Shown here in pieces: positions 6,596-28,670 of a stretch of 28,670 nt of DNA. The notes beneath the pieces are model-generated. The model did not search any database and was not told the DNA's origin. It saw only the letters and a program-made list of their open reading frames with translations. Positions within the stretch are counted from its first letter, which is position 1, and every line of letters begins with the position of its first letter. The DNA is from a virus. The stretch spans positions 1 to 28,670 of the IMG/VR virus record IMGVR_UViG_3300007540_000074. One strand, given 5' to 3'. Made by a program: the position numbers and the translations under genes.

Positions 6596-6618
6596 TTAAT
6601 TTTATTATATATTATATT

Positions 6619-7470
6619 ATGGCAAAAAAACAAACAAAAGTCTCAACGCAGGCAGACCCTGGGGATGAGCATGTAGAAAAAGTGGTAGTTGAAACTCCAC
6701 CGGTTGTAGAACAACCAAAAGTAAGAGAAAGAATAAAACCGAAAAATGAATGGGAAATAAAAGATAGATTATACATATTAAAAGGTAATAAAAAACCTTT
6801 ATCAAGAATGATCAAGTCTGCAAGCATTTATTATTTTGACAAAGAACTAGGTTATGAAAGAGAACTTAAATACTGTCAAAATCAAAAAACTCCATTTGTT
6901 GACGAGATGAATGGTGATCAAAGATTAGAACATATTATATTTAGATCTGGTAATTTATTTGTAGAAAAAGAAAAAACAACCTTACAAAAATTACTAAGTT
7001 TATATCACCCGCATAGAGATCAAATATACGAAGAATATAAACCAGCAGCTATAGCAGAAGAAGAAATAGATGTGTTAGAAATGCAAGTAGACGCGTTGAC
7101 AGCTGCTAGAAGTATTGATATTGACATGGCGGAAGCTATCATGCGAGTAGAAAAAGGCTCTGAGGTATCTAAGTTAAGTTCTAAAGAACTTAGAAGAGAT
7201 TTGTTAGTGTTTGCTCGTAATAATCCTAAGTTGTTCTTAGAGTTAGCGGATGATGAAAATGTAATGTTAAGAAACTTTGGTATTAGAGCTGTTGAAGCTG
7301 GAATATTAAGATTGTCTTCTGATCAAAGAAACTTTTTATGGGGTAGCAATGGCAGGAAGTTAATGGTTATACCATTTGACGAGCATCCATACACCGCTTT
7401 AGCGCATTGGTTTAAAACCGATGAAGGTATGGAAATTTATTCTAATGTAGAAAAAAGATTGAATGAATAG
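6619..7470 (+). CDS. Conserved phage structural-module protein of unknown function
   Basis: 283 residues. Residues 1-40 are Lys/Glu/Pro-rich and probably disordered. The body begins with NEWEIKDRLYILKGNKKPLS, followed by SASIYYFDKELGYERELKY and then RLEHIIFRSGNLFVEKEKTT; this sequence style recurs in marine Bacteroidota phages beside capsid genes, as far as I can recall, but I know of no function. Residues about 138-190 are helical and acidic. It sits alone between two UUCG hairpins, so it may be expressed at its own level. It ends with TAG TAG TAA in frame, the only gene here that does not end in TAA. It could be a decoration, completion or head-vertex protein; this is only position-based. 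The start at 6619 is preceded by a TATTATATT leader. Confidence 0.72.
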   Translation: MAKKQTKVSTQADPGDEHVEKVVVETPPVVEQPKVRERIKPKNEWEIKDRLYILKGNKKPLSRMIKSASIYYFDKELGYERELKYCQNQKTPFVDEMNGDQRLEHIIFRSGNLFVEKEKTTLQKLLSLYHPHRDQIYEEYKPAAIAEEEIDVLEMQVDALTAARSIDIDMAEAIMRVEKGSEVSKLSSKELRRDLLVFARNNPKLFLELADDENVMLRNFGIRAVEAGILRLSSDQRNFLWGSNGRKLMVIPFDEHPYTALAHWFKTDEGMEIYSNVEKRLNE

Positions 7471-9361: not shown

Positions 9362-11593
9362 ATGCCAGAATTAAAAAATAGTTTTACTGGTGGTAAAATG
9401 AATAAAGATCTCGACGAGAGAATTATTCCTAGTACTGAATATAGGGAGGCTTTAAATATATCTGTTGCAACATCAGAAGATAGTAATGTTGGAGCAGCTC
9501 AAAACATATTAGGTAACACCCGTGTTTCTTGCGCAATACAAGGTCCAAACGGCAAATATGCAGAAAGATCTAAACATATAGCCGCAATAGCAGATCCACA
9601 AACAGATAAAATATATAGATTTATTCATACTCCAGATAATGTTTCTGGTGTTTGGATGGATAGGATAATAGAGTTTGACACAACGGCACCTTTAAATGCT
9701 GAGTGTGAAGATAAGGAGAAAGCAGTAATGGTTGATATATATAAAGTAAGAACAACTATAACCGACGCTTCTTATGAATGTGATGGTGGCCCAGCTACTA
9801 TTACAGTTCAAGGTAATATATATCAATTAAGATGGGGGATGTTGATTGTAGGTGGTGGAATTAAAGAGTCTGACGGTGTAACTGTTCTTAGTGTTAATAT
9901 ACTACCAGGAGGTCAATCAGCAAAACTAAAACTATCTAACAATATTAATGGAGATAATACACAAAATATTACAAACGGAGATGTAATATTAACACATGAC
10001 AGATCATTAAATTTTGATCCTGATCGTTTTATAACAGGTATTAATGTTTTAGATAATATGATATTTTGGACTGATAATTATTCAGAGCCAAAAAAAATAA
10101 ATATAGAAAGAGGTTTAGCTGGTAGTTTGGTTACGTCTGAAAGATACAATTCAATTCCAGCTGTCCCTTATATATATGATAGTTTTGATCAACACACTAG
10201 ACTAGTTATTTGGGTAAACGAAGAATGGATAGTTCCTACTGAATGTAGTATAGTTTCACCAAATGGATGTGGACCAGGAGAACCTGTTGAAATATTAGGT
10301 TGTACGGATGGAACTGGAGCTAGTAATCCAAACGTGCCTAATACCGGTGCTGCTACTAATTATAATGCGTTAGCTACAGTAGATGACGGTTCATGTGTTT
10401 ATCCTCCTGTACCTTGTGAAAACCAAGGTTGTAATGATCCAATTGCAACTAACTATGACCCTATTAATTGTTCGGATTGCGCAGGTGTTGTTGGTGGTAC
10501 AAATTACAGTTGTTGTGTATACCCAGTTGTGCCATGTCCAGGAACGCTTCAAATATATTTTCCAGAAGCTCTTATGGATATGTATGGATCACCAAGCAAT
10601 TCTGGTACTACTCAATACATGAATGTAGCAAGCACATACGCTGGCGATATAGGTTGGTGGAACAGTACTAACACTAATGCTGAAAACTTTCAGATGGTTC
10701 CTCAGCATCGATTAAACAACTGGTGGCCTTATGAAAATGTAGCATTAATAATACCTTCGTTTTACGCGGTGCACAGTTCCGGTTATAAAAACACCCAAGA
10801 TACTTTTGGTATTCAAAGTTGGGTTCCAGTAGCTAACAGTGCGTTTGATGGTTGGAAGTTTCCGACAAAATCACCTGCAGATCATCCAGATGGTTGGGTA
10901 CACAAACCAAGATGGGAAATATTATGGAGAGCACATGATCAAGGTATTGTAACGTATAGAAATGAATTAAACGGAGCATCACCACAACCTGGTGGTATGG
11001 CAACTATAAACGCGGCTGTTCCTTTACCGACGGTAGATGATCCAATCAATTGGAATCAAAATAATTATGATTTTATTCCAGAATTTTTTCAAGAAACCAT
11101 TGATTCAAACCAAGGATTTCATCATGTTCACAACAGCATGTACTCGCAACCGGAAATATATTATGGTGTTCGTTTTAAAAGTCCACAAGATTTTTTAACT
11201 TGGATGAATCGAATTCCAGAATTTGTATCAGATCGTGTGTTAAATAATCCAACGTTTACTTACCATGGTAGTATGATTGCAACTCACACTGCAAGTCATG
11301 ATAACAATCCTCAGTGGGTAGGTACTATTCCTTATTTAAACTCAGGTATGTTACGAACACCACAAGGTGGTATACCAAGGTTTTCTCAAGATCCAGAAAC
11401 AGCATTTGGTACTTCAAATATAACAGCTCCATACGGTACTATTAATCCTACCAACGCTTGGGCTTATCAAATTACTGCTAAAACTTTAATGACAGATGTA
11501 ATACAAAAAAGTTTAAATAAGTTTTATCAACAAGCTGGTATAACTGAAATACCAATTATAACAAGATCAACAGTTCAAAAATGTCTAGAATAA
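9362..11593 (+). CDS. N-terminal part of gp10-like tail-hub (stabilization/muzzle) protein with host-type Cys repeats
   Basis: 743 residues. The first about 260 match the beginning of the P22-gp10-like stabilization/muzzle family of crAss-like and flavobacterial phages: NSFTGGKMNKDLDERIIPST (residues 6-25), REALNISVATSEDSNVGAAQ, and MIFWTDNYSEPKKINIERG, a beta-propeller blade. After FDQHTRLVIWV the family's usual continuation is missing; instead there are two GCxD...NYxP...C repeats (10298-10402 and 10427-10522) and then a 355-residue Trp/Pro/Asn-rich region that I do not recognise. The family's later blades appear in the next gene. This suggests a split and expanded hub protein, with the new C-terminal part exposed, possibly as a receptor-binding domain. 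ATG is 3 nt after the previous stop. Confidence 0.75.
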   Translation: MPELKNSFTGGKMNKDLDERIIPSTEYREALNISVATSEDSNVGAAQNILGNTRVSCAIQGPNGKYAERSKHIAAIADPQTDKIYRFIHTPDNVSGVWMDRIIEFDTTAPLNAECEDKEKAVMVDIYKVRTTITDASYECDGGPATITVQGNIYQLRWGMLIVGGGIKESDGVTVLSVNILPGGQSAKLKLSNNINGDNTQNITNGDVILTHDRSLNFDPDRFITGINVLDNMIFWTDNYSEPKKINIERGLAGSLVTSERYNSIPAVPYIYDSFDQHTRLVIWVNEEWIVPTECSIVSPNGCGPGEPVEILGCTDGTGASNPNVPNTGAATNYNALATVDDGSCVYPPVPCENQGCNDPIATNYDPINCSDCAGVVGGTNYSCCVYPVVPCPGTLQIYFPEALMDMYGSPSNSGTTQYMNVASTYAGDIGWWNSTNTNAENFQMVPQHRLNNWWPYENVALIIPSFYAVHSSGYKNTQDTFGIQSWVPVANSAFDGWKFPTKSPADHPDGWVHKPRWEILWRAHDQGIVTYRNELNGASPQPGGMATINAAVPLPTVDDPINWNQNNYDFIPEFFQETIDSNQGFHHVHNSMYSQPEIYYGVRFKSPQDFLTWMNRIPEFVSDRVLNNPTFTYHGSMIATHTASHDNNPQWVGTIPYLNSGMLRTPQGGIPRFSQDPETAFGTSNITAPYGTINPTNAWAYQITAKTLMTDVIQKSLNKFYQQAGITEIPIITRSTVQKCLE
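10298..10522 (+). repeat. Two GCxD/NYN/DDGSC-type Cys repeats
   Basis: Protein repeats. The first (10298-10402) reads GCTDGTGASN, then ATNYNALATVDDGSCVY; the second (10427-10522) reads GCNDPIATNYDP, then a longer Cys-rich spacer ending NYSCCVY. They match the consensus GCTDPTAxNYNPxAxxDDGSC that recurs in secreted proteins of Bacteroidota and that is repeated many times in the gene at 17994. Confidence 0.88.
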
Positions 11594-11603
11594 ATTAATA
11601 AAT

Positions 11604-14600
11604 ATGGCTGAAAACGATTATTCTTCTGGAACTGGGCCTAGCTTAGGTCCTTCTACTACTCCGGGTACACCTGGTACGCCTATCACACCAGGCACGCCTG
11701 CTTTAATAAATCCAGATCTTACTTTAAGTACACCTAGTACTGGTTCTACACCTGCTGTTGTAACTACGCCCACTTTTATCTCAAATCCTTCTGGTGTTGG
11801 AGTATTAACAGGTGGTGTAAATACTTTAGTGTGGCAAAATGGAGGTCTTTTTTTAGATGACCAAGTTGTTGGGCCTGCTAGAGGAGTTGATCAACCTAGA
11901 GGAGCAATTTATGAACGTACGGAGTTTATAAAAAGTTGTCAAGACGTTTATGTTCAGGAAAAGCATTTATCGGTTGTACGTAAAGGACCAACAGCACCTG
12001 TAACGCTATCTATGTTTAGCTTTGTAAGAGAAGATCAAAACAATGACGATAAAGTTGACATAGAGAACGAATTTTTTGGTGATGAAGCTACCCACTTAGC
12101 AAGCGACGGCAGTAGTGTTAGTGTGTTTTTTGACTCGTATAAAAATAGAAAAGCAGTTGGTGATATAGTAGAGTTACCTATAGATCAAACATCAACCGGT
12201 GATGGAGAAGACTTTAAAAGTGGTGATGTAGTTATTATATCTTATGAATACACCGATTACTTAGGAATTTATCAAGAAACTACTTGTAGAGCTGTAATTC
12301 AACTTTGGGATGGTACTAGCACGAGTACTTTTGTTCAACTACTACAAAGTACAAATGGTTTTCCTTTAATCACAGATGACACCGATGTATATACTGTTAA
12401 GTTGGTTCAAGATGACCCAATGTTTAAACTCAAATTTCCAAGATTTTCTTATAGATATAAATATGAAGATGGAGAGTACTCTGTTTTTGCACCTTGGTCT
12501 GAAGTAGCTTTTATACCTGGAGAATTTGATTATTTACCTAAAAAAGGTTATAATTTAGGTATGGTTAATAGATTAAGAGCTTTAAAAGTTATGGATTGGG
12601 TTCCTAAGGGTATACCAAAAGACGTTGTTCAGGTTGATTTATTATACAAAGAATCAAACGGACCAAATGTTTACACCGTTGAAAGTTTTAAAAGAGATGA
12701 TGAAATTGTTGGGTCTAGATTAACTAACTATTGGAACACCCCTGGTACTGGTTCAAACTTTGGGAACTATACAGTTACTTCAGAGTTAATTCACGCTGTT
12801 GTTCCCTCAAACCAAATGCTTAGACCTTGGGACAATGTTCCTAGAAAAGCTTTAGCACAAGATATTACTGCAAATAGATTGATATTTGCTAATTATTTAC
12901 AAAACTACAATATAAGATCTTCTGTTAATTCAACAAGTGAAATAAAGCCTATTTTTACATGGGCACTAAGTGGAGATCTTGATCAACCCGCAACTAATGT
13001 AAAGTTACCGGCTAAATCTCTTAAGTCAATGAGATCTTATCAACTTGGGATTGTATATAGAGATAGGTATGGTAGAGAAACTCCAGTTTTAACTTCTAAA
13101 ACAGGTTTATTTAAAATTAAAAAAGACAGATCGCTTTTATACAATAGAATAGAAGTTGGTATGTCTTCACCCGCTCCAGATTGGGCTGAATCATTTACTT
13201 ATTATATTAAAGAAACTTCTAACGAGTATTACAACGTTGCAATGGATCGTTGGTATGATGCTGAAGATGGCGGGGTTTGGGTTTCTTTTCCATCATCAGA
13301 AAGAAATAAAATACAAGAAGATGGCGTGTTAATTCTAAAAAAACAACACGAAACAGATACAGCTGTTGTTACAGATGAAGAATATAAAGTTATAGATATA
13401 AAAAACAGTCCACCTACATTTATAAAAACAGATACTAGATACTGGGGAAGTGTAGATATGATGCTGCCTCCTCCTGGTTGGGGTATAGGTAGTAAACCTG
13501 GTGGTTGGCAATCTGGAATGTTTGTACCAACAGGCATACCTAAAAGAAATAGAATATATATAGACATATACAAAGAGTATGTTGAGGCAACTATATTAGC
13601 CGGTATAAAAGACGCGTTAAAAGATGGTGTTGAAATAAGAATAACACAAACACCTGGACAAGCTAGCGCACTAACTACCCAAGCAACTACACATGTTAAC
13701 AAATCGGATTGGTATCAGGTTGCTCAATTTACACAAACAACAGAAGACCCAGCAACACATATTGAAACAACTTTAGATCCAAATGATCCAAACACAACTA
13801 TAGAAACAGAAGTTGAAGCGTCGGGATCTGCTGATCCAGTAATGAGAATTACATTAGAAAAACGAATGGGCGATGATATGCTTTTTACTGAACCGGCAGG
13901 TGGTTTAGATTTATCAAGAGGATTAGCTATAGAATGTAAAACTCATAAAGTAAGAGATAAAGCTCAATTTCAAGGTAGATTTTTTGTTAAACTACATAGG
14001 AGCAGTGACTTTGTTACAAATGTAATAAACACTTCAACTAAAGAAACTGAAAACCTTGTTGTTGTCGAAAGTAGAGGTGTTAAGTATTTGTGTGACGGAC
14101 ATCCTGGTGTTCAAGACTGGAGTTATATGACACCTGCGTTATCACCAACACCTGTTGCTGCCCCATATACTAACTACATACCTCCAGGGCAAAACATTTA
14201 CAAACTTAGACCTGGCCAAGCAAATATAAACGATGGTTATGATGGTTGGAAAAATCCAAACGGAGCTTCAAAAGGTAGACCGTTTAGCGTTGTTAGTAGT
14301 TATGGGTATGCTGGAAAATCTGCAACATTTTTAGGTGTTAACGGACAGGTATACGGCTCTCCAGATGGTACAAACGCAAGTCAAACCCCTCCAGATGTTG
14401 CTGCTTATGAAAAATGGCCTTATGGACCTGGACCTCACGATGGTGATCCTTTTAGTTCTTTTCCTACTTCTGCTCAGGCAGACTTAACTCAACAGTCTTA
14501 TAAAGGACTACCAATTACTGATGGTTGGGGACCTGGATCATGGTTTTCAACATCATATAAAAACCATGTAAACGCAGATTATCAACCTTATTTTTGGGAA

Positions 14601-17600
14601 CCAAGATATGCAAAGTTTAGAGAGTGGCCTTCTTTTATAAGCTCTTCATGGGAACCAGGAGTATTACATCCAGGACATGCTATCAGCGCCGGCGTTACTG
14701 ATGGATCTCCAGGGTTGGTATTACTGGAGGAAGATGGTTTTGTGTTTAGAACTACAAGTGGTGGAGCAGCTATGCTACACCAAGATACATCAATAGCGTC
14801 TTCTTTATTTGGAGATGCATATAGATCAAATCCATATCAAATGCCTGCTATCTGGGGAGATAACGATGCTATGATAAATAGTACAACAGGAAACTATACT
14901 TTTGGCGCAGATACAATTACTAGTTTAAATAGAGACTGGATGGGTTATTACAACACCGGTACTGGTGGTAATACGTATTGGCCATTTGTAAAAACAAATT
15001 GGAGTAGATGGTTTATAGATAAGGTTGGCGCAGCTGAAGGTTATGGTGGCCACGGTGAGTATGTGGGTAACGATGGTGTTTCTCACATGAGTATTTCTTA
15101 CTGGGGAATTGGTGCGAGCGATGATAGAACAGATAGAGATCCACACGATTTATCAGCTAAACAACCTTTTGAAATGCAATTTGCTAATATGATTTCCACT
15201 GTTGGCACTATGTTTAGATTTAAGCAAGACCCCGACCAAATAGTATATACAGTAACATCAGCCAACGCAGAGCCCGTTCACAACTATGAGGCCTTTAGAG
15301 GGTCTTGGGGTTGTGTAGATCAAATTACTTACGATCCAGGTGGTGGGTATATAAAATCACAAATACAAACAGGTGAGTTTAATACTGGTAGTAGCACATT
15401 TAAACATTTATTGCCTAATTCTGGACCTATGCTTTGTGGTCATCAAAGAGGTATGGGTGGAAGAAAAGCTTTTTACTCAGATTTATATCATGACTTTGAC
15501 TCGACAGGCACGTGGAAACGAACAGGCCGTCACTTTACAAACAATCGAATTAGGATTAATATAACTTTAGACAAAGCTATAGGCGGTGGACCAAACGCTT
15601 TTCATCCTATAACAAATCATGTTGATGAAAATGGAATTGCTAATATAGAGCAAGCTGGAGATCACGGCGCTAGATTAAGATATGATTCAGATATAGCTTC
15701 ACATGTTAAAACAGAAAAAGGTGGTACACCTGTTATATTTGGTTTAAATTCTAACAGTGGTTATGAGATGTATAACTTATCAAGTTATTGGAATATTAAT
15801 TCTACTAAAAGAGCTTTAATTCAAGCCAACGGTTATCAACAGCCACACGACTCTTCAGATGCTTTTTACGATGAACCAACAGATGGAAGTATTGCTCCTT
15901 ATATTGGATTGCACGAAAGAGGTTTAAATCAAACTACTATAGAAATTTTAGAGTATTATGATGAAAACGATGGAGATCAAAAAATGAGTAATAATCCAGC
16001 TATATTTGAAACAGAGCCAAAAGAAGATGTTGGTTTAGATATATATTACGCTGCTTCACCATCTTTTCCTATTAATACAAAACGATTTAGATATGACACT
16101 GATGAAGTACCAGGTTGGAGTAACTTTAATCTAAGAGGAGAAGAGTTTGTTAAGGTTGGTGGTAATAATACTCCACATGGTTATGCTAAAATACATATTC
16201 CTTCTGGTGTACCCCCAGTTGGTTCAACTCCTCAAATAGCTATCATTGATGGTGTACAAGAAAACATTATATTTTTAAATACACCACTTATGTTAGATGC
16301 AAATGGAGATCCACTACCTCCTGATGTTAATGATATTGTTGAGTTTACAGTGCAGGGTGATGGGGTGTTTTATGGGGCAGGAATAGATGTTACTTTTGTT
16401 AGAGCTAGAATTACAAAAGTAATGACACCTACAATGTTTGTAATAGAATCTAACGCTCACACATCAGACAACAAGGTAAGTTTAAGTTACTTTAATTGTT
16501 ATTCATTTGCTAACGGCGTAGAGTCAAACAGAATTAGAGATGATTACAATGCTGTTACTATAGACAAGGGTGTTAAGGCTTCAGCTCCTTTAGCTACAGG
16601 TTATGAAGAAGAAAGAAAGAAAAGCAGTCTTATATTTTCTGGAATATATAATTCTACTAGTGGTATTAATAGTACAAATCAATTTATACAAGCCGAACCA
16701 ATAACTAAAGATTTAAACCCAATCAACGGTAGCATTCAAAAAATATATGCTAGAGATACGGATTTAGTTACATTTTGTGAAAATAAAGTATTTAAAATAT
16801 TAGCTAAAAAAGATGCTTTATTTAATGCTGACGGAAATACAAACGTAACTTCTAACGCAGCCGTTTTAGGTGCTACAATACCTTTTAGCGGAGAATATGG
16901 TATATCAAGAAATCCAGAATCATTTGCTGCTGAATCGTATAGACTTTACTTTACGGATAAAGACAGAGGTACTGTTATGAGATTGTCTAAAGATGGTTTA
17001 ACACCTATATCAGACAAAGGTATGAAAGATTGGTTTAAAGACAACTTAATGCACGCCAGCACTTTGATTGGTAGTTTTGACACTAGAGAAGATCATTATA
17101 ATTTATCTATAGACACTAAAGATCAAGATAATATTACTAACGCTTATACTTTAACTTTTACAGAAAGCAAAGGTGGTGGATGGGAATCTTTTAAAAGTTT
17201 TATTAAACAAGGTGGTATTAGTTATAAAAATAAATATTACACATTTGCTTCTAATAAGTTTAATTACGATAAAAACACAGCTCCAGGTTCTAAATCTGAA
17301 ATACTATATGGAGAAGGAGAAAAATATGGAAAAAGAATTGGTATGGCGGAAATGTGGCAGCATCATGTTGACTTAGATTTTCATAGAGTTGTAGCAAACT
17401 CTGTTAACGGGTCAACACAGGTTTCTTTAGTTCCATCAAGCCAAACAAGTGTTGTTACATCGTTTATGAACGTTGAAGGTAATGGCATCCCTATAGACAC
17501 TGTTGTTTCAAGTAGCGTTAGCGGAGGAAATGTAATTATACTTAACAAACCCGTTCATATTAATGCTGGAGAAAAAATAAAATTTACCACACCAAGAAAT

Positions 17601-17990
17601 AATTTTTATGCAACACCATCGCACTCAATGGTAAGAACTCTTATGAACGGAGCACAGGGATCTGTTAAAAGATTTAAAACAATAAACTACGAAGGAACGC
17701 AAGGTAAAGTTTTAGGACAACAAGGTGTTGATTATTATACTTTATCAAAAGGAAATAATCTTCCTATAAATGTAGGTCAAAATTATTCAAATAATATTCC
17801 AAAAAAAGGTTGGGAGGTTTTTGAAATAACTACTGATTTACAAAAAGGAACTATAAGAGAGTTTATTGCAAAAGAAAACAAATGGTTTAATTATATAAGA
17901 GGTCACGCTCCGGGTGGAGATGCTGGAAGTGGTGATAACTTTGATACAGCTGAATTTTCAGTACAAGGATTAGGATTTACAAATTTATAA
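11604..17990 (+). CDS. Giant C-terminal gp10-like tail-hub protein
   Basis: 2128 residues, the largest complete gene here. Residues 1-75 are a Pro/Thr/Gly/Ser linker (PGTPGTPITPGTPA). Residues about 110-135 (VQEKHLSVVRKGPTAPVTLS) and 278-310 (FPRFSYRYKYEDGEYSVFAP) pick up the gp10-like family where the previous gene leaves it. Residues about 780-1500 are an unfamiliar Trp/Gly/Tyr/His-rich stretch, probably inserted domains. Residues 1704-1815 return to the strongly conserved blades: SIQKIYARDTDLVTF, GEYGISRNPESFAAESYRLY, DRGTVMRLSKDGLTPISDKG. The C-terminus is beta-rich. Role: hub/nozzle of the short tail and plug for the DNA channel, with surface-exposed additions likely binding the host. 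It starts 10 nt after the previous gene without Shine-Dalgarno. Possible fibre function of the insert is inference. Confidence 0.8.
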   Translation: MAENDYSSGTGPSLGPSTTPGTPGTPITPGTPALINPDLTLSTPSTGSTPAVVTTPTFISNPSGVGVLTGGVNTLVWQNGGLFLDDQVVGPARGVDQPRGAIYERTEFIKSCQDVYVQEKHLSVVRKGPTAPVTLSMFSFVREDQNNDDKVDIENEFFGDEATHLASDGSSVSVFFDSYKNRKAVGDIVELPIDQTSTGDGEDFKSGDVVIISYEYTDYLGIYQETTCRAVIQLWDGTSTSTFVQLLQSTNGFPLITDDTDVYTVKLVQDDPMFKLKFPRFSYRYKYEDGEYSVFAPWSEVAFIPGEFDYLPKKGYNLGMVNRLRALKVMDWVPKGIPKDVVQVDLLYKESNGPNVYTVESFKRDDEIVGSRLTNYWNTPGTGSNFGNYTVTSELIHAVVPSNQMLRPWDNVPRKALAQDITANRLIFANYLQNYNIRSSVNSTSEIKPIFTWALSGDLDQPATNVKLPAKSLKSMRSYQLGIVYRDRYGRETPVLTSKTGLFKIKKDRSLLYNRIEVGMSSPAPDWAESFTYYIKETSNEYYNVAMDRWYDAEDGGVWVSFPSSERNKIQEDGVLILKKQHETDTAVVTDEEYKVIDIKNSPPTFIKTDTRYWGSVDMMLPPPGWGIGSKPGGWQSGMFVPTGIPKRNRIYIDIYKEYVEATILAGIKDALKDGVEIRITQTPGQASALTTQATTHVNKSDWYQVAQFTQTTEDPATHIETTLDPNDPNTTIETEVEASGSADPVMRITLEKRMGDDMLFTEPAGGLDLSRGLAIECKTHKVRDKAQFQGRFFVKLHRSSDFVTNVINTSTKETENLVVVESRGVKYLCDGHPGVQDWSYMTPALSPTPVAAPYTNYIPPGQNIYKLRPGQANINDGYDGWKNPNGASKGRPFSVVSSYGYAGKSATFLGVNGQVYGSPDGTNASQTPPDVAAYEKWPYGPGPHDGDPFSSFPTSAQADLTQQSYKGLPITDGWGPGSWFSTSYKNHVNADYQPYFWEPRYAKFREWPSFISSSWEPGVLHPGHAISAGVTDGSPGLVLLEEDGFVFRTTSGGAAMLHQDTSIASSLFGDAYRSNPYQMPAIWGDNDAMINSTTGNYTFGADTITSLNRDWMGYYNTGTGGNTYWPFVKTNWSRWFIDKVGAAEGYGGHGEYVGNDGVSHMSISYWGIGASDDRTDRDPHDLSAKQPFEMQFANMISTVGTMFRFKQDPDQIVYTVTSANAEPVHNYEAFRGSWGCVDQITYDPGGGYIKSQIQTGEFNTGSSTFKHLLPNSGPMLCGHQRGMGGRKAFYSDLYHDFDSTGTWKRTGRHFTNNRIRINITLDKAIGGGPNAFHPITNHVDENGIANIEQAGDHGARLRYDSDIASHVKTEKGGTPVIFGLNSNSGYEMYNLSSYWNINSTKRALIQANGYQQPHDSSDAFYDEPTDGSIAPYIGLHERGLNQTTIEILEYYDENDGDQKMSNNPAIFETEPKEDVGLDIYYAASPSFPINTKRFRYDTDEVPGWSNFNLRGEEFVKVGGNNTPHGYAKIHIPSGVPPVGSTPQIAIIDGVQENIIFLNTPLMLDANGDPLPPDVNDIVEFTVQGDGVFYGAGIDVTFVRARITKVMTPTMFVIESNAHTSDNKVSLSYFNCYSFANGVESNRIRDDYNAVTIDKGVKASAPLATGYEEERKKSSLIFSGIYNSTSGINSTNQFIQAEPITKDLNPINGSIQKIYARDTDLVTFCENKVFKILAKKDALFNADGNTNVTSNAAVLGATIPFSGEYGISRNPESFAAESYRLYFTDKDRGTVMRLSKDGLTPISDKGMKDWFKDNLMHASTLIGSFDTREDHYNLSIDTKDQDNITNAYTLTFTESKGGGWESFKSFIKQGGISYKNKYYTFASNKFNYDKNTAPGSKSEILYGEGEKYGKRIGMAEMWQHHVDLDFHRVVANSVNGSTQVSLVPSSQTSVVTSFMNVEGNGIPIDTVVSSSVSGGNVIILNKPVHINAGEKIKFTTPRNNFYATPSHSMVRTLMNGAQGSVKRFKTINYEGTQGKVLGQQGVDYYTLSKGNNLPINVGQNYSNNIPKKGWEVFEITTDLQKGTIREFIAKENKWFNYIRGHAPGGDAGSGDNFDTAEFSVQGLGFTNL
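11661..11700 (+). repeat. Pro-Gly-Thr low-complexity repeat at N-terminus
   Basis: Imperfect tandem PGT/PIT units in DNA (variants of CCNGGNACN) encode TPGTPGTPITPGTPA, with more Thr/Pro-rich sequence to about base 11775. It is probably a flexible linker before the first folded part. Confidence 0.7.
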
Positions 17991-17993
17991 GAT

Positions 17994-20309
17994 ATGGCAA
18001 TAGCAACACGTATAAACTATGGGGGTGGTAATTGTGGGCCAGGAACTGGACCTTGTCAAGGGCTTGATTGTCCTGGTACAAGTGGGGATTGTTATCCTTA
18101 TTGCGATCCACCGCCGGGTCTTTGTCCAGACGGAAGTCAACCAATCCCATCTAAAAGATCTGGTGGCTTTGAGTGTCCTGATCCAGGTCCTTGCGTGGGA
18201 ACTGGCTGTCCACCTAACAACTGCTCTGGGCCATGTTGTGTTAATAATGAGTGCATTTGTAATGATTGTAGTTGGGGTAATGATGGTGATTGGCATATTT
18301 ATTGGAGTTGCGACGATGATCACGAAATAATAGTTTTAAACGATGATAGATCAATATCTGATTTAGAATCTCATAATAATCATTTTGATAATTCACAAAC
18401 AGAACTAGGTAGTACAATTACAATACCAAGTCATTTTGGTTTTGGTACAGATGCGATTATACCTTTTGTATCATATCCAAACGATTGTTATACTTATTTA
18501 GGCAAAAAATACGGAACTACACCAAGTGATGTTGTTACAGCTGGTCTAACCGTTGTTGAGGGGCTTTGGGCTGGAACGTCACCAAGGGGACAAAGTTTTA
18601 GCCACCAACTCCAAGAATGTAAAGATTGTGGCCCGGTAACGCCTCCACCTCCAATTGGTGGTTGTATGGATCCAACGGCCTGCAATTACAATCCCAACGC
18701 GACAGGTAGCAGTAAAGATTGTTGTTATATCACTGGTTGTACAGATCCAACAGCACTTAATTATAATGCTGGTGCGTGTTGTGATGATGGTTCTTGTTGT
18801 TTTCAATCAGGTTGCACTAATCCATTAGCTTGTAATTACAACTCAAAAGCGCCGCCGTGTATTGACGATGGTTCTTGTTGTTTTAATGAAGGGTGTATGG
18901 ATGATGGTACTGTTGGTAACGCTTTAAGACCATCTAATTGGACGGGTCCAGCTACAAATTACGATCCAAACGCATGTTGTCCTGGTACTTGTATATATAC
19001 AAATGTAGAAAGCCCTGATTACACTTATGTAATTTGGTGTTCGTTCTTTAAACTAAACGGTAATGTAATTCAAGATGACACGTTCTACACAGAACTTAAT
19101 GCAGCAATTACTACTAATAGTTTTTCATATACAGACATTGCAACCATGTTTGGTGGTACGCAAAATACTTTACCTGATTTTAATGGAACTCAAAGAATAA
19201 TGGTTCCTGGAGACACTGTTAGACAATATTATCCATTTAGTGATAATAACAATATAATTTCAAGGACTTATGTAGGCGTTATATCATCTTCAACTGACCT
19301 AGTAACAAGCTCTGGATTAGATATTGGTAGCGGAGTGTTTATTCAATCGTCAGGAGCCCAAGTTATGTTAGGACCTGGGGTTTATAGTGGCGGTGGAAAT
19401 TCACCAACAATTACTGCTTATAATTTTTTAGACTCATCAGCATGTTGTGATAAAATAACAACTCCGACTTGTAGTGGCGCAGTTTCTGGTTGCACAGACC
19501 CCACAGCTCACAACTACAACCCGCTAGCAACTATTGACGATGGTTCATGTGAATTTTGCGTAACAGAACAAGACTTACTTACATGGCAAAGAGAAAACAA
19601 CGAGGGTCAAGTGTTTGATATTACTACTTTTATAAGTGGAAAAGGACTCACGGGTACGGGGGTATTTTGTGGATGTAAAGACGTTGCAGCAAATAATTAT
19701 TGGAGTTGGGCAACGTTTGATCCGGTAACACCAAATCCACCTGGGTCATGTACTTACATCTCTGCAAGTATTTCTGGTTGTACAGACGATGGTAATTCTC
19801 CTGCTGGAACAACGTTTGGTAATTTAACTAGACCTTCAATTCACCCAGCAGGTGTCCCAGCATTAAATTATAATCCAAGTGCTACATCGGATGATAGTAG
19901 CTGTCTGTGGTGTACGTGGACTAGCGGTAGTGGTTGTACAACAAACGGAGTATGTAACTCTGGTGGATCAGGTTGGTTTATAGATTATAATAATTCAAAT
20001 ATCAATGGTAATTACCCTAGATTTATAACAATAGGTTTAAAACCAAATGGTAATGGTATAAGTGAGGTAAAATTAAGTTCTAACCAGGTAAGCAATGGCG
20101 TTGTTACTAGCCTTACTAAAGATACAAGTTTTACTAGTTTTGGTCCTTATGGTGTTCAAAATGGTTGGGAACAATGGAGTGTTACTTTAAGCGCTAATGT
20201 TGGTTTTACGGCTCCAAACAATGCTGTAAGTTTCTTAGTTTATGAATCAGATGGAGCGGGTGGAACATCAGTGTGTAATCCTATTATAATAGGCATAGGA
20301 TTAGGTTAA
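17994..20309 (+). CDS. Cys-rich repeat protein, probable tail surface / receptor-contact protein
   Basis: 771 residues with about 60 Cys, very unusual for a phage protein. Residues 1-100 are Cys/Gly/Pro-rich (CPGTSGDCYPYCDPPPG), GC-richer than the flanks. A folded segment follows (about 100-215). Residues 223-335 hold four GC(T/M)D-type repeats; a beta-rich domain (about 340-490) separates them from three more (499-640), and the C-terminus (650-771) looks like a beta-sandwich ending SVCNPIIIGIGLG. The repeat consensus GCTDPTAxNYNPxAxxDDGSC is known from secreted and adhesin-like proteins of Bacteroidota. No signal peptide is seen, as expected for a virion protein. Placed 3 nt after the tail-hub gene, it is probably in the tail tip. 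The exact binding partner is unknown. Confidence 0.72.
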   Translation: MAIATRINYGGGNCGPGTGPCQGLDCPGTSGDCYPYCDPPPGLCPDGSQPIPSKRSGGFECPDPGPCVGTGCPPNNCSGPCCVNNECICNDCSWGNDGDWHIYWSCDDDHEIIVLNDDRSISDLESHNNHFDNSQTELGSTITIPSHFGFGTDAIIPFVSYPNDCYTYLGKKYGTTPSDVVTAGLTVVEGLWAGTSPRGQSFSHQLQECKDCGPVTPPPPIGGCMDPTACNYNPNATGSSKDCCYITGCTDPTALNYNAGACCDDGSCCFQSGCTNPLACNYNSKAPPCIDDGSCCFNEGCMDDGTVGNALRPSNWTGPATNYDPNACCPGTCIYTNVESPDYTYVIWCSFFKLNGNVIQDDTFYTELNAAITTNSFSYTDIATMFGGTQNTLPDFNGTQRIMVPGDTVRQYYPFSDNNNIISRTYVGVISSSTDLVTSSGLDIGSGVFIQSSGAQVMLGPGVYSGGGNSPTITAYNFLDSSACCDKITTPTCSGAVSGCTDPTAHNYNPLATIDDGSCEFCVTEQDLLTWQRENNEGQVFDITTFISGKGLTGTGVFCGCKDVAANNYWSWATFDPVTPNPPGSCTYISASISGCTDDGNSPAGTTFGNLTRPSIHPAGVPALNYNPSATSDDSSCLWCTWTSGSGCTTNGVCNSGGSGWFIDYNNSNINGNYPRFITIGLKPNGNGISEVKLSSNQVSNGVVTSLTKDTSFTSFGPYGVQNGWEQWSVTLSANVGFTAPNNAVSFLVYESDGAGGTSVCNPIIIGIGLG
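18660..18998 (+). repeat. Array of four GC(T/M)D-type Cys repeats
   Basis: Units start at 18660 (GCMDPTACNYNPNA), 18735 (GCTDPTALNYNAGACCDDGSC), 18810 (GCTNPLACNYNSKA ... DDGSCCF) and 18891 (GCMDDG, longer, with ATNYDPNACCPGTC). The first three are exactly 75 nt apart. The DDGSC-encoding DNA, GATGATGGTTCTTGTTG and close variants, recurs almost unchanged in units 2 and 3. Confidence 0.9.
19488..19910 (+). repeat. Second group of Cys repeats
   Basis: A nearly perfect unit at 19488-19556 (GCTDPTAHNYNPLATIDDG then SCEF), a degenerate one from 19671 (GCKDVAANNYW ... GSCTY), and a long one from 19779 (GCTDDGNSPAG ... ALNYNPSATSDDSSCLW). Insertions between the GC and NYN halves lengthen the last two. 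Confidence 0.85.
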
Positions 20310-22393: not shown

Positions 22394-23374
22394 ATGGCGA
22401 TAATGGCAGCATTGGCAATAGGAGGAGCTATCGCCGGGGGTATAAAAGCCTTTTCTGGTTTTAAAGATAAAAAAAAGGCTAAGGCAAAGCAAAAGGCAGC
22501 TGAAGCAGGATTAAAAAACGCTCAAAACGCGCTTAAAGCGGTTGACACTTCTAATCCTTTTAAAAACGCTAGCAATGCTTACGCCGACATGGAAAATCAA
22601 ATGGCGGGTCTTAAAAACGTTTACGAAGATCAGGTAAATGTTTATGCCGACATGGAGAACAAAATGGAGGGGCAAGAAAACAGAATGGAAGGATTGAAAA
22701 ATGCTTTTGAAGGTGTTGATAATGCTATGGAAGATCTTACTGTTAACACGCAGCAGGCGGAGTTTGAAGCCCAACAAAACCAACAAATGCAAGCAAACAT
22801 TATGTCGAGTATGGGTGCAGCTGCTGGTGGTTCTGGTATTGCAGCTTTAGCGCAGTCTATGGCTAATCAAGGGGCTTTACAAGCTCAAAAAGCATCAGCA
22901 TCTATTGGTGCTCAAGAAGCTGCTAACACAAAAGCCGCTGCCGAAGCACAGCAAGAAATTGATATGACAGCCGCTGGTGAAGATCAAAAATTACAAATGG
23001 CAGAAGCATCTGAAGCTAGTAGATTAGACACTGCCTCTCGTGAAGCTGATATGATGATACAGCAAACACAAATGAGCGCCGAAGAAAGAATGCAAGCTGC
23101 TGAGCTTGGTGAAGCTGCGTCACTACAAATGGCGGAAGCCACTGAACAATCTAGACTAGATACCCTGGAAGCACAAGGAGAAATGGAGGTTCAGAAATTA
23201 AAAGGTGAAGGCGCTATGTGGAGTGCTGAAGCTGAAATGCAAAAACAATCAACACTGATGGATTCTTATGCGCAACAAGCTGGTATGGCAGCAAAAGAAA
23301 AAGCTGCTGGAGATAAAAAAGGATGGGGTGGAATTTCTGGCGCTCTTAGTTCTTTGGGTGGACTTGGTAAATAA
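22394..23374 (+). CDS. Glycine-rich/coiled-coil internal virion (ejection) protein
   Basis: 326 residues. The N-terminus AIMAALAIGGAIAGGIKAFSG is a glycine-zipper-like hydrophobic helix able to insert in a membrane; it is followed by a Lys/Ala-rich helix. Residues 61-115 contain imperfect repeats (NAYADMENQM and NVYADMENKM, 21 residues apart), then MEDLTVNTQQAEFEAQQNQQ and the Gly/Ala-rich AAAGGSGIAALAQSMANQGA, a combination I remember from internal proteins of marine Bacteroidota phages. Residues about 175-295 form a long Ala/Glu/Gln/Met coiled coil with two copies of LQMAEAxExSRLDT 44 residues apart. Probable role: an ejected protein that helps carry DNA through the envelope. It starts at ATG 22394, after a 71-nt AT-rich gap. 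Confidence 0.76.
   Translation: MAIMAALAIGGAIAGGIKAFSGFKDKKKAKAKQKAAEAGLKNAQNALKAVDTSNPFKNASNAYADMENQMAGLKNVYEDQVNVYADMENKMEGQENRMEGLKNAFEGVDNAMEDLTVNTQQAEFEAQQNQQMQANIMSSMGAAAGGSGIAALAQSMANQGALQAQKASASIGAQEAANTKAAAEAQQEIDMTAAGEDQKLQMAEASEASRLDTASREADMMIQQTQMSAEERMQAAELGEAASLQMAEATEQSRLDTLEAQGEMEVQKLKGEGAMWSAEAEMQKQSTLMDSYAQQAGMAAKEKAAGDKKGWGGISGALSSLGGLGK
22574..22741 (+). repeat. 21-residue tandem repeats in the internal virion protein
   Basis: N(A/V)YADMEN(Q/K)M is encoded at 22574 and again at 22637, exactly 63 nt apart. The DNA is TACGCCGACATGGAAAAT against TATGCCGACATGGAGAAC. Looser MEGLKN / MEDLTV units continue to about 22741. Confidence 0.8.
22991..23164 (+). repeat. 44-residue periodic coiled-coil repeat
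   Basis: LQMAEASEASRLDT (bases 22991-23032, residues 200-213) and LQMAEATEQSRLDT (23123-23164, residues 244-257) are 132 nt apart. The DNA differs mostly at silent sites, so the protein pattern is being preserved. A 44-residue period equals four 11-residue hendecads, as in some right-handed coiled coils. Confidence 0.75.
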
Positions 23375-23387
23375 TAAAAATATAAAT

Positions 23388-24782
23388 ATGAAAAAAATAA
23401 AATCATCACCTTTAAAACAGATGGAAACAGGAGCTATGGGAAAAAACCCCCAAGAGCACTTAAATAAAATGAAACAACAAACCGAAGACGGGTTAGCTAT
23501 AATTGGAGAGGGCGCTAAAAGACTTGCATGGAAAGACATGCAAATTAATATTAGAGCAATTGAGCCAATGAGCATGCAGTTGAGAAAAGCTAAAGACCAA
23601 ATTCTTAGAAAAAAAGATAGAGAACTATTTGACGATCTTGAACAACCTGAGTTGTCACCTGCGTATGCTAAAATATTTAAAATTGTATTAGATAAATACA
23701 AACAAGAACTTTTCGAAGCATTAAATAGTGAAGACAAAGAACAAGAGGGAGTTGTAAAAACAAAAATGGCAGCGTTTAAACAAGAGGCTGCCGCTATCAA
23801 AGAGTGTATAGCAGAATTTCGCGAAGATCATTTTGACTCAGAGTCATTATTATCTAAAGGAGTTTCAGCACAACAAGTTAGTTTTGCTACTCAAATGTAT
23901 TGTGAAAATCCAGATTTAAAAATTGCAAACGCTACTAGTCAAGATGTTGAAAATGGTTACACCGATTGGTTTGGAGTGCCAGTTATTGAAGATAAACTAT
24001 ACGCTTTTATATATGATTTTAGAGGTGTTCAAGTTATGATGAATATTTTAGATGGCAACAAAGATATGTTTATAAGAAACAATTTAAAAGCTTCTGAATA
24101 TATTAACTTTTTAAATAAAATGCATGAAGACGCTTTAAAAGCTTCTGGCGCTAAAGCTGCTCACAAAATAGATTTAGGGCGTATTAACTATCAAATAGAC
24201 AGTATGTTTGGTTATGGTGATGGTACAGCTAGTACAGAACAAAATGAATTAGTTATGATGTTTGCACATGACAGCGAGGTATTGAGAGATGGTAGTAGTT
24301 TTAGACGTCATTTATATGAACACCCAAGTATAAAAGATTTAAATTACGGAGGGTTTGACTGGAATAGTTTAAACGAAATAGCACCATTAGGACCTGGCGA
24401 TGTAAATTATTGGCATGATAACGTTGATGATATTGATAAGTTAATGTTAGTTGACGCTCTTATTAATGTTGATAATCCATTTTTTGATCTTGAGTTATTA
24501 AGAACATTAGTTAAAGAATACTACACTACTAAACTAGAAAATGCATGGTGGAAAGGCATGGGCTACAAAGAGGGCAAACTAGAATTAATGAGATTAAAAA
24601 GAGACAAACTTAACAAAGCTAGATTTGAAAAAGAAAAAACAGACGCTGCTAAAAATGGTATGTTAGAATTTTTATTTGATGGCAAGATGTATCCAACAGG
24701 TATGACACCAGAGAAAGTTAAAAAGCAAGAACAAGAAACTAAAGAAGCTACTGAAAAAGCTAATCCAGCGTTAAACAAATAA
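23388..24782 (+). CDS. Probable internal virion protein with N-terminal SPLK tag
   Basis: 464 residues from ATG 23388; the frame is open further upstream to 23268, but that part overlaps the preceding gene, and the AAAAATATAAAT leader fits starting here. The N-terminus MKKIKSSPLKQMETGAMGKN shares the 'SPLK' element with the next gene. The body is helical (REDHFDSESLLSKGVSAQQV; VKEYYTTKLENAWWKGMGYK) and ends in a charged Lys/Glu helix. No enzyme motif is seen. The protein LENAWWKGMGYKEGKLELMR segment looks familiar from marine phage virion proteins, but no function comes with it. Its place between a membrane-active coiled-coil protein and a giant protease-like protein suggests it is part of the ejected complex. 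Confidence 0.68.
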   Translation: MKKIKSSPLKQMETGAMGKNPQEHLNKMKQQTEDGLAIIGEGAKRLAWKDMQINIRAIEPMSMQLRKAKDQILRKKDRELFDDLEQPELSPAYAKIFKIVLDKYKQELFEALNSEDKEQEGVVKTKMAAFKQEAAAIKECIAEFREDHFDSESLLSKGVSAQQVSFATQMYCENPDLKIANATSQDVENGYTDWFGVPVIEDKLYAFIYDFRGVQVMMNILDGNKDMFIRNNLKASEYINFLNKMHEDALKASGAKAAHKIDLGRINYQIDSMFGYGDGTASTEQNELVMMFAHDSEVLRDGSSFRRHLYEHPSIKDLNYGGFDWNSLNEIAPLGPGDVNYWHDNVDDIDKLMLVDALINVDNPFFDLELLRTLVKEYYTTKLENAWWKGMGYKEGKLELMRLKRDKLNKARFEKEKTDAAKNGMLEFLFDGKMYPTGMTPEKVKKQEQETKEATEKANPALNK

Positions 24783-24783
24783 T

Positions 24784-27700
24784 ATGTTGAAAAAACCATC
24801 TCCATTAAAACATAAGGAACAAATTCCTGAAAGACAAGGCGCACATGCTACTCTTACTACAGAAGAGCATGAGGCGGTACATGGTGGTAAAATAGATACT
24901 TTGTTTGATTTTGAAGTAGATGTGCTTAAACCAAAGAAAAAAGAAGATAAAGAAAGAGTTAATCAATCTAATACATTTAGATTATTAACAGAGCAAGAAG
25001 AAGAATTGTTTTACCCATCAACTAAAACAGTTGTAGCTAAAGATATTGATGGTAAAGACGTAAAAATACAACAACCTTTAGATTTTACCAAACCAAAACC
25101 TGAGTTTGAAATAGGTGAAGACGGCAAAGTAAAATCAAAAAATGTAGATAAGAAAATCTATTACCAAGCTAATGCAATTCATTGGCAGGGTGATGATTTT
25201 GGAAATTATAAAAGGAAAAATTCTAGATGGTATAAGACTGTAAATGGTAAAGAAGAAGAAGCTTTTGCCGGTGAAACATTGAGTAAAAAAGAGAGGGCTA
25301 AGTTAAATGATTTAAACAAAACTCTTTACACTGGTAAAATTGATTTAACCGATGTAGAAACATGGAAAAACAGGGATGAAAAAACTATAGTAGGTTCAAT
25401 AACAAATTCTAATTTATTTCCAGGAGCTATAGGTGAAGACATTGGCCCTATGGCTAAAATTACATTACCAAACGGTGAGGAGTACACATCTAATCCAGAT
25501 GCTGAAGAAGGCGCAAAATATAAACCAACACAAAACCACGGCTTACCAATAACAGAATTAGGTAAAAAAGTACAAGAGTTCTATAAAAATACAGATAAAG
25601 ATGTTGATCTTTTATCAAGTTTACAGTTTAAAAATAGCAATGAGTTAAGAAGATCATGGGGTCAACTTGGTTATAAGGTTGAAACCACTCCTAATAGTTT
25701 GGCTAAAGGTGGTCAAGACATTGTGTTAAAAGATAAAAATAATAAAGAACTAGCGTCTGGTGATATAAATGATATAAAAAAATATCTTTACAATAACGCT
25801 AGCAAAAAAGATATTTCAAGGTTAAAACAACTATCTATTATAGAAGCTAGAGATAATATTAACGCTGTTAACAAATATAAAAAAAATTTAAATACTGCTA
25901 AGCTACGTGAAGAAGCGGAAAATGATTATTTAGAAAATAAGTTTAAAGCAGAAACAATGCGGACAATTTTAGATAGTCCGTTGCAACAAACAACTATAGA
26001 TGCAATAGATAAGTATTATAACACGAATATGGTTGGTAATGTGGAAACAGGTAAAATGTCCATGTTAAACGGTAAAAGTTTTACTGATTTAAGCTTTATT
26101 ATTGAAACGCTAAGAGCAAGCGATCCCAATCATCCAGATATAGCTATACTTAAAAATTTATTACCAAGACTTAATAAAAACAAAGAAACAGGTATATTAC
26201 AGTCAAAAAACGAAATGATTAATAAGGCTGCTGGCACATATCAAGATCAGTTATATAGAAAAAATAAAGACGCTATTCTTGTGAAAATGGGAACTGAATA
26301 TCTCGAACGTGGAGACGAGGAGGGTAAAGGTGGTACTATAGAAAAAGCTGAAATAAAAGCTGGTGTAGACGAGATGGTTGATAGTTACAGTAAAAATATT
26401 GATAAATATCAAATTGCAATATCCTCTTTAGCCGAGGACGCTAAAAAAGACGGTGTTAACGTGAGCTACCAAGTTGATAATTTTCAAGTAACCGGGGAAG
26501 ATACTGAAAAAGTTAATTTTTATGCAAATAAGTTTTCAGCTTTAAATGACGCTATTAAAGCAACTATAGAAGATTACGCTAATACTAAAGAATATTATGA
26601 TAATCAATATGGCGATTGGAGTAACAAGTATGAAGATGTTTTAACACTACAAGAAAAAACATCAAGAGAAAACAACTTGGGCCGAATGAACATGAGCAAA
26701 CTTAATGATGGTTTTAGAAGCATGGCTTATTCCGCTTTAAGTATTTTTGACGAAGAAAAAGCCATTGCTAAAACAAAGTCAATGCGTGAAGGGCAAGGGT
26801 TTTTAGAAGCGCCACTTGATTATAAAACAGCGATAGAAACTGGACAGAAATTTAGGTTTGCTACTGGTGAATTATCTACACAAGGCGCAAACGTTATTGT
26901 TGCCATTGCTAGTGGTGGCGCTGGTACAGCAATGGGACTTGGAAAAGTTGGTACTTCAATGCTAGTTGGTTACGGTGTTTTTGGTGCTTACTCTGGTACA
27001 CAGAAAGGTATAGACTTAGAAATACAAAGACAAGCTGGGGAAGAAGCTAAAAAAAGATTAGCTGAACTAGAGAAATATAAATTCATGTACACTCCTCAGG
27101 ATTATATGAGAACTAAAATGCAGTTAAACGAGGCTATTGCTTACGGTGATATATCTGATAGTGATAAAAGCAAAGCTATGTTATCTTCTTTTTTGATAGA
27201 GGGTACGGTAATGACGGCTTTAAATAGCTTTGGGTTGGGTACATTGCCAAACTCCATGAATCTTATAAACAAGTTTAAAACTCCTATTTCTAAATTAAAA
27301 GTTTCAAACAAACTATTAAGAAGCGATTTGAGGGCTGCTGGGGATGTAGTTTGGCAGTCTACAAAAGGTGTAGCAGGTGAAGTTTTAGAAGAAACAAGTA
27401 TTGAATCTCTTACGACAGTTGGTGATGGTTTAATACTAGGTAGAGACTTTAGTGATTGGCATGAAAACTTAGACGATGTAGCTGTAACATCGATAATAAC
27501 TTCTGGTGGTATGACCACGCTACCTAATACTTACGCGGCTATAGTTCAGCAAGCTGCAACTTCTGATTTTAGAAAAGATGTTAATAAGTCTCTTAATAAA
27601 ATGGAAGAGATTAAAACAAAGTTTGCAACTTTGGGTGTAAAAGATCCAATGCGTGATATTTACATAGATGAGTTTAAAGCTGAGGTTGAAAAAATAGCTG

Positions 27701-28670
27701 GTGAGCATACTAAACTAGAAGTTGATGCTTTAGCTATGGGTCCTGGTAATGTAAGAAAACTTGTTAAAGCAGCTGTTGAAGAAAACTTTTTAAACCAACA
27801 AGCTGGTGTTACATCAAATGATAACGCCGCTACAATAGATGAAAGAAGAAAAGCATATATAGAATCATTAAGTCCAGAAAAAGCAAAAGACTATCAAGAT
27901 AGACTAGACGCTATTAAAAACCAAAAAAATAAAATCATAGAAAATATAGACTATGATAACGTTGCTGAAAAAGTATTTGGTGAAAGAGGTAAGTACTGGG
28001 AAAGAAAACTAAAAGACAACGCTGAATATAAAAACGCGGATAAAAGAGGTAAGCTAGCTTTAATATTAGAAAGAATAAGAGCAACTAAAATTAGAAGCAA
28101 CGTTAAAAAAGCTAAAAGTAATCCTTGGGTTGAGACAGAAGTATTAGAACAAACTCTTCATATAAAAAATAAAAAAGATAGAACTAAGGTGCAAAATGCT
28201 ATGTACCAAGACTACGCTAAGGCACTTTTAGTAAACCAAAGAAACTCTTTAATATTAGCTGAAGAAGGAAGTTTGAGTGCTAAAAACTTAATGGATACAG
28301 GGCAGATCGAAGGTCTTAATATTACCAAGGCAAAAGATATTAACGAAATGATTGACGCTGTTTATTCTAGTGAAACTTTAACAGATGAAGACAAGCAAGG
28401 TATTATTTTTGCCCTAACTAAAGGAGAGGCTAAGGCTGTTATTATAGATAATAAGTATGTTGTTTTAGATAAGAAAGCCGCTAGAGAAAACTTAAATAAT
28501 GGTGATTTACTTCAAGGCACAGTTTTATCACATGAGATAAGTCATTTTGTAGATGATATGTCTTTTAAAACTACAGAAGAAAAAGCAAACTATACTAAAA
28601 ATTTATACTCTTTAATAAGCAAAAATACTCCAGAGCTTCATGATAGAGCTTTAAAACGTGTTAACAATAT
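24784..28670 (+). CDS. Giant internal virion protein with HExxH zinc-peptidase motif (3' end outside window)
   Basis: Open from ATG 24784 to the window end: at least 1295 residues with no stop. It starts 1 nt after the previous TAA. N-terminus MLKKPSPLKHKEQIPERQGA carries the SPLK element also found at the start of the previous gene. Residues about 1-690 are soluble and charged. Residues about 698-745 contain a Gly/Ala-rich hydrophobic stretch (GANVIVAIASGGAGTAMGLG; then LVGYGVFGAYSGTQKG), able to enter a membrane; a second hydrophobic stretch lies near residue 800. Close to the edge, residues 1248-1260 read LSHEISHFVDD: H1250 and H1254 with E1251 form HExxH, a zinc-metallopeptidase signature. 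The third ligand would lie beyond the window. Role inferred: ejected protein that cuts envelope or host protein. The long size fits such giant phage proteins. Confidence 0.78.
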   Translation, partial: MLKKPSPLKHKEQIPERQGAHATLTTEEHEAVHGGKIDTLFDFEVDVLKPKKKEDKERVNQSNTFRLLTEQEEELFYPSTKTVVAKDIDGKDVKIQQPLDFTKPKPEFEIGEDGKVKSKNVDKKIYYQANAIHWQGDDFGNYKRKNSRWYKTVNGKEEEAFAGETLSKKERAKLNDLNKTLYTGKIDLTDVETWKNRDEKTIVGSITNSNLFPGAIGEDIGPMAKITLPNGEEYTSNPDAEEGAKYKPTQNHGLPITELGKKVQEFYKNTDKDVDLLSSLQFKNSNELRRSWGQLGYKVETTPNSLAKGGQDIVLKDKNNKELASGDINDIKKYLYNNASKKDISRLKQLSIIEARDNINAVNKYKKNLNTAKLREEAENDYLENKFKAETMRTILDSPLQQTTIDAIDKYYNTNMVGNVETGKMSMLNGKSFTDLSFIIETLRASDPNHPDIAILKNLLPRLNKNKETGILQSKNEMINKAAGTYQDQLYRKNKDAILVKMGTEYLERGDEEGKGGTIEKAEIKAGVDEMVDSYSKNIDKYQIAISSLAEDAKKDGVNVSYQVDNFQVTGEDTEKVNFYANKFSALNDAIKATIEDYANTKEYYDNQYGDWSNKYEDVLTLQEKTSRENNLGRMNMSKLNDGFRSMAYSALSIFDEEKAIAKTKSMREGQGFLEAPLDYKTAIETGQKFRFATGELSTQGANVIVAIASGGAGTAMGLGKVGTSMLVGYGVFGAYSGTQKGIDLEIQRQAGEEAKKRLAELEKYKFMYTPQDYMRTKMQLNEAIAYGDISDSDKSKAMLSSFLIEGTVMTALNSFGLGTLPNSMNLINKFKTPISKLKVSNKLLRSDLRAAGDVVWQSTKGVAGEVLEETSIESLTTVGDGLILGRDFSDWHENLDDVAVTSIITSGGMTTLPNTYAAIVQQAATSDFRKDVNKSLNKMEEIKTKFATLGVKDPMRDIYIDEFKAEVEKIAGEHTKLEVDALAMGPGNVRKLVKAAVEENFLNQQAGVTSNDNAATIDERRKAYIESLSPEKAKDYQDRLDAIKNQKNKIIENIDYDNVAEKVFGERGKYWERKLKDNAEYKNADKRGKLALILERIRATKIRSNVKKAKSNPWVETEVLEQTLHIKNKKDRTKVQNAMYQDYAKALLVNQRNSLILAEEGSLSAKNLMDTGQIEGLNITKAKDINEMIDAVYSSETLTDEDKQGIIFALTKGEAKAVIIDNKYVVLDKKAARENLNNGDLLQGTVLSHEISHFVDDMSFKTTEEKANYTKNLYSLISKNTPELHDRALKRVNN
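28531..28545 (+). other. HExxH zinc-metallopeptidase motif
   Basis: CAT GAG ATA AGT CAT encodes HEISH, in frame with the giant protein, following a run GTVLS. Hydrophobic residues before the motif and Phe-Val after it fit the active-site helix of zincins. Confidence 0.6.

Follow-up and report, generated by a model that had tools for sequence, protein, structure and literature searches.

A short SP-hydrophobic-K element at the N-termini of late proteins in crassvirus-related marine phages resembles an address label for cargo loading

Gene order and the two tagged proteins

The window analysed here is a whole IMG/VR phage contig of 28,670 bases, with genes in the order terminase, portal, putative scaffold, capsid, two putative ring proteins, a split muzzle, more tail genes and a three-gene cassette. 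The cassette, located after the muzzle, consists of a gp14-like gene (22394; "gp14-like" is our working name for the first cassette gene), a middle gene (23388) and a giant gene (24784). In tblastn searches the best matches of the window were MW202828 (portal 50%, capsid 47% identical) and Maribacter phage Panino (portal 47%, capsid 43%), followed by the Flavobacterium elemo phages and, more distantly, Cellulophaga phi38:1 and Pachyviridae in the portal and capsid comparisons. Among the matches listed, the portal is 36-50% and the capsid 40-47% identical to Elemovirus/Callevirus/Panino-like Bacteroidetes phages, with which the window shares a homologous portal and capsid and an identical gene order. 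The capsid and portal sequences place it near these cultured Bacteroidetes podoviruses. The tagged phages described below are a little-known marine, large uncultured group related to the crassviruses. The features of the window used here are as follows.

9362-11593, + strand: N half of the split crass-type muzzle (PF25731, E 3e-6, 1 bit below the curated cut-off)
11604-17990, + strand: C half of the split crass-type muzzle (PF25729, E 8e-5, below the cut-off)
22394-23374, + strand: gp14-like protein, first of the cassette, with a glycine-rich N-terminal segment; weak profile link to elemo gp20 and Panino
23388-24782, + strand: middle cassette protein, 464 aa; position of phi38:1 gp100 (annotated structural protein)
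23388-23420, + strand: tag 1, MKKIKSSPLKQ, N-terminus of the middle protein (SPLK codons 23406-23417)
24784-28670, + strand: giant protein, 1295 aa; position of phi38:1 gp101 and elemo gp18 (annotated structural protein)
24784-24813, + strand: tag 2, MLKKPSPLKH, N-terminus of the giant protein (SPLK codons 24799-24810)

The sequence-only reading of this DNA had proposed that the genes at 23388 and 24784 have a common basic start containing SPLK, and both genes indeed encode it. From the ATG at 23388 the middle protein begins MKKIKSSPLKQMETG and ends at 24782. An alternative ORF of 504 aa starts at 23268 and overlaps the preceding gene; the ATG at 23388 is preferred because homologues back it. 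The giant protein begins MLKKPSPLKHKEQ from the ATG at 24784 and is open at the contig end.

The three cassette genes are syntenic with phi38:1 gp99-101, which are annotated as structural. Because of this gene position and the structural annotation in relatives we call the cassette products putative ejection proteins. Profile comparison of the middle protein with the syntenic proteins of three cultured relatives gave no match, tblastn found no relatives of the middle or giant protein in cultured phages, and a single-sequence search of viral contigs with the 464-aa middle protein confirmed no relative. The AlphaFold model of the middle protein is of low confidence (mean pLDDT 64.6, with residues 1-21 below 50) and returned only noise from Foldseek. 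Profiles or sequences of the portal, gp14-like protein and muzzle gave no useful match in the PDB. In the giant protein, an HExxH (SHEISHFVDD) spotted by eye at 28500-28640 is suggestive of a metalloprotease domain, and the giant of the relative L218 contains an AAA/zeta-toxin-like kinase domain. The muzzle, two ORFs in the window, is a single ORF in many relatives (1467 aa in L147), and the intact homologues L147 and phi38:1 gp97 pass PF25729. Cysteine-rich repeats of the GCTDPxAxNYNPxAxxDDGSC type occur in the tail proteins at 9362-11593 and 17994-20309.

Conservation and distribution of the tag

Close homologues had been expected to keep the motif, and relatives of both the middle and the giant protein do. 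In an alignment of five giants (the other four being 23-80% identical to that of the window), no run of invariant columns other than S6, P7, L8 and K9 exists within the initial ~400 residues, and K4 is also invariant; the giants of L217, L218, L222 and L223 start with MLKKxSPLKH/Q or MRKPSPLKH. SP[LF]KQ is retained in seven of eight middle-protein homologues, those of L217-L222 having a lysine-rich start followed by this element. Among the seven tagged homologues S, P, K and Q are fixed and the third position shows one change from L to F, while the residues directly after SPLKQ differ in sequence and length. For both tags the SPLK codons differ synonymously between relatives and the peptide is kept. 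This combination of a fixed peptide, changing codons and drifting flanks points to purifying selection on the tag peptide. A second, looser element, T-x-E/K-x-H-x(3)-H, lies ~12-20 residues downstream of the giant tag in the window (24784-24890, as TTEEHEAVHGG), L217, L222 and L223.

Relatives were gathered through the capsid profile (80) and the gp14-like profile (80 cassettes); ~50 contigs were read whole or nearly whole, and the tag counts span ~80 related contigs. ORFs were called mechanically as the longest non-overlapping frames from the first ATG, so counts are approximate, and the late or early class of a protein is its strand relative to the capsid gene. SP[LFMAI]K within the first 40 residues was found in 51-52 of 1672 late-strand proteins and 1 of 302 early-strand proteins (Fisher p 0.003, from a recount of 52/1672), a strong late enrichment and near absence from early genes that favour the sequence-only reading by the test which it had set. 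Shuffled N-termini gave an expectation of 3.0±1.6 late proteins (51 observed) and 0.5 early (1 observed), and the reordered PS[LFMAI]K had no occurrences in the same N-termini. Other orders of the four letters were rare in an earlier, smaller set. With one member counted per family, which removes shared descent, ~26 of 343 late families are tagged against ~1.1 expected (0.15 of 150 early families), making this a short N-terminal element common to otherwise unrelated late proteins. In the relatives' proteins the density of SP[LFMIVAY]K is ~1.0 per 1000 residues at positions 1-20 and 0.03 per 1000 past position 100. The third residue is hydrophobic in 53 of 67 N-terminal SPxK copies and in 35 of 135 copies in protein bodies. 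Lysine is enriched two positions before SPxK, and the residue after the K varies widely, with none conserved.

A scan of all viral contigs with MKKxSP[LF]K returned 30 stretches, mostly short frames, and the reordered control MKKxPS[LF]K returned 41. The exact pattern is thus not commoner than its control virus-wide, and the difference lies in which genes carry it. Its ORFs of at least 100 aa were three gp14-like genes (one of them, in L154, cut by the locus end and fully read as L237), a split-muzzle C half and an unidentified protein that two contigs share; no long ORF from the control was gp14-like by its N-terminus. None of 314 ORFs in the cultured relatives examined carries the motif, so phages of this style can do without the tag.

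The tag is not confined to two neighbouring proteins, as had first been thought, since up to seven proteins per genome carry it (G034). Where a role can be assigned, the tagged protein belongs to the ejection cassette or is the C half of a split muzzle; the remaining carriers are small, basic and late. The tag does not mark virion proteins in general: the capsid, scaffold, portal, ring and intact muzzle, like the terminase, chaperonin and early genes, have essentially no tag. Among the large late families, the gp14-like one is tagged in 13 of 39 members and the others together in 2 of 1048. The gp14-like protein is untagged in the window and tagged in ~28 of 94 relatives' cassettes, and in 54 of 84 cassettes neither the gp14-like nor the middle protein is tagged. 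Absent from most cassettes and from all cultured relatives checked, the tag is dispensable. SPLK opens the muzzle C half in G001, G033, G034 and L220 and is absent from that of the window. Carriers mostly have one N-terminal SPxK, and a few gp14-like proteins have two. Searches found no cultured relatives of the tagged small proteins or of one tagged gp14-like protein.

Several small proteins deserve mention in their own right. G010 (6155-6418) and G030 (6598-6846) encode small linker-histone-like proteins with repeated [AS]PAK units (MMKKAPAKMMKKSPAK). Small basic late proteins encoded in clusters (G007 33878-37160 and similar) often begin MAFKMK or M(A)YTQKNNPF, and one family in those clusters carries DUF6321. 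A 46-aa protein combining an SPLK element with an EF-hand-like segment (KKKSPLKGGQAKLDANKDGKISKDDF) occurs in L146 (9247-9387) and also in L162, L166 and L172; in L146 it sits near the portal gene of a different-looking phage.

Repeated gain, loss and transfer, and fused ORFs

The tag has repeatedly been gained, lost or transferred between neighbouring cassette genes. On a tree of 91 gp14-like bodies, from which the N-terminal residues were mostly omitted, the gp14-like tag must have changed state no fewer than 12 times, and well-supported branches force six of these changes. L223 has the tag in a prefix of its gp14-like protein (MLDKNGNKLLKPSPLK-IFKKVGRFLFGDN) and none on its middle protein, and in its sisters L220 and L221 the middle protein is tagged and the gp14-like protein is not. 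A second case of alternation has the tag on the middle protein in L233 and on the gp14-like protein in L235, L236, L263 and L270. Mutual exclusion of the tag between the gp14-like and middle proteins is suggestive in these two small clades and not significant, the cases being sparse and the tests underpowered.

In six relatives, L217-L222, the gp14-like and middle parts form one in-frame ORF, and in L222 an S74 chaperone-of-endosialidase domain (PF13884), usually C-terminal, lies between them. The window has these two genes in separate frames and lacks the S74 region. The methionine before the tag is invariant in the fused ORFs, which fits an internal start there; L217-L222 could also be true fusions with the tag in an internal position.

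A loading or docking motif, its alternatives and known systems

The reading that we prefer, with a probability of about 0.5, is that the tag, a short linear motif, serves to load or dock ejection cargo in the particle. On the flexible N-termini of late proteins, the motif K-x(0,2)-S-P-[LFMA]-K would be bound as a peptide by a phage-encoded partner in the assembling particle, on the portal, tail barrel, muzzle or scaffold side. Such binding would draw the ejection proteins, together with several small basic late proteins, into the particle or position them for ejection. A disordered start, a fixed core, an upstream lysine and recurrent appearance and disappearance among unrelated proteins argue together for a short linear binding motif, and the mostly hydrophobic third residue is as expected of a peptide fitting a protein pocket. 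Particle loading or docking is suggested by the tag being restricted to late genes and concentrated on the putative ejection cassette; we infer both that a protein binds the tag and that loading is the result. Against the loading view, the tagged muzzle C halves are tail-tip parts and not cargo, none of the small basic carriers is a known virion protein, and the tag is internal in the six fused ORFs unless translation begins at the conserved ATG. In the open-access literature that we searched, there was no account of SPLK or a comparable phage N-terminal motif and, for the tagged group, no virion proteomics and no record of a protein in the particle. Somewhat more tentative is the broader proposal that one N-terminal code, SP-hydrophobic-K, serves as a genome-wide cargo address which moves between ejection genes and is read by one receptor in the particle; no gene family significantly tracked tag presence, and co-occurrence gave no candidate for a reader or receptor.

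The tag might instead act after ejection, setting the order in which injected proteins exit or guiding them to a membrane, channel or factor of the host. Of the carriers that can be identified, putatively ejected proteins are the best represented, and the gp14-like tag stands directly before a glycine-rich, hydrophobic segment with the potential to insert into a membrane. However, the split muzzle halves are tagged too, and their injection is not expected; we consider a role after ejection unlikely.

A little less likely again is a DNA tether, in which an SPKK-like minor-groove binder would hold internal proteins to the packaged AT-rich genome. The tag does fit S/T-P-x-K/R, small basic proteins are frequent among its carriers, and the [AS]PAK runs of the G010 and G030 carriers are like those of linker histones. 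Yet in addition to X being mostly hydrophobic, K or R occupies it in none of the 67 N-terminal copies, against 15 of 135 in protein bodies, so that no N-terminal copy reads SPKK or SPRK, and an X that is never basic and favours hydrophobic residues speaks against DNA binding of the SPKK kind. Large carriers with a single N-terminal copy and the untagged early DNA-handling proteins also fit a tether poorly.

On a par with the tether in its low probability is a processing site, with a phage protease cutting at or after SP[LF]K to take off a leader or to separate the two parts of the gp14-like/middle fusion. The motif lies at the gene junction of the fused ORFs, and T4 removes its targeting leaders by a protease in a similar manner (PMC7411985). 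The highly variable residue following the K does not suggest a cleavage site, and a prohead protease as in T4 was absent from between the contiguous portal, scaffold and capsid genes, with no Pfam protease match.

Still more doubtful is a client tag for an assembly helper such as a phage GroEL/GroES, independent of where the protein is destined. Many of these genomes encode a chaperonin with several tagged small genes nearby, but the capsid and portal, which would be its likeliest clients among the structural proteins, are untagged. Finally, although MKK starts are favoured in AT-rich genomes, chance or a by-product of lysine-rich translation starts is refuted by the shuffled N-termini, which give more than tenfold fewer copies, and by the absence of the motif in reordered form.

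How podoviruses choose the proteins that they pack and inject is poorly understood, and loading signals encoded in sequence are known from few phages. If the tag is the address label for cargo loading that it resembles, a searchable four-residue motif would predict cargo proteins in a large uncultured crassvirus-related group and would offer a compact peptide handle for loading foreign proteins into laboratory phages. The cargo peptides of encapsulins and microcompartments are likewise short linear loading codes on unrelated proteins, and the tag is similar to them in principle.

With the SPKK of sperm histones the tag shares Ser-Pro-x-Lys within basic N-termini, but its third residue is hydrophobic and it usually occurs in one copy; SPK(K/R) defines the histone DNA-binding motif (PMC9903204). 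In phi-crAss001 an unassigned stretch of 14 cargo residues, which probably comes from the N-terminus of gp45, lies beside the ring-joining domain of the muzzle (PMC10172136). The window's cassette is likened to gp45/gp46 of that phage by gene order and not by homology: in both, cargo genes follow the muzzle gene, and the N-terminus of gp45 is basic, whereas the phi-crAss001 cargo N-termini have no SPxK. The best functional parallel would be the capsid targeting sequence (CTS) of T4, a short stretch at the N-terminus that stays conserved in internal, ejected proteins which otherwise differ from one another (PMC3012670, PMC7411985). As on IPI-III and Alt, a short N-terminal element marks diverse proteins, which in the group of the window are putatively ejected. 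The tag differs in its SP-hydrophobic-K core, in belonging to another phage lineage, in the internal position of some copies and in having muzzle parts among its carriers. The likeness to the T4 CTS would thus be at most one of function, achieved with a different motif.
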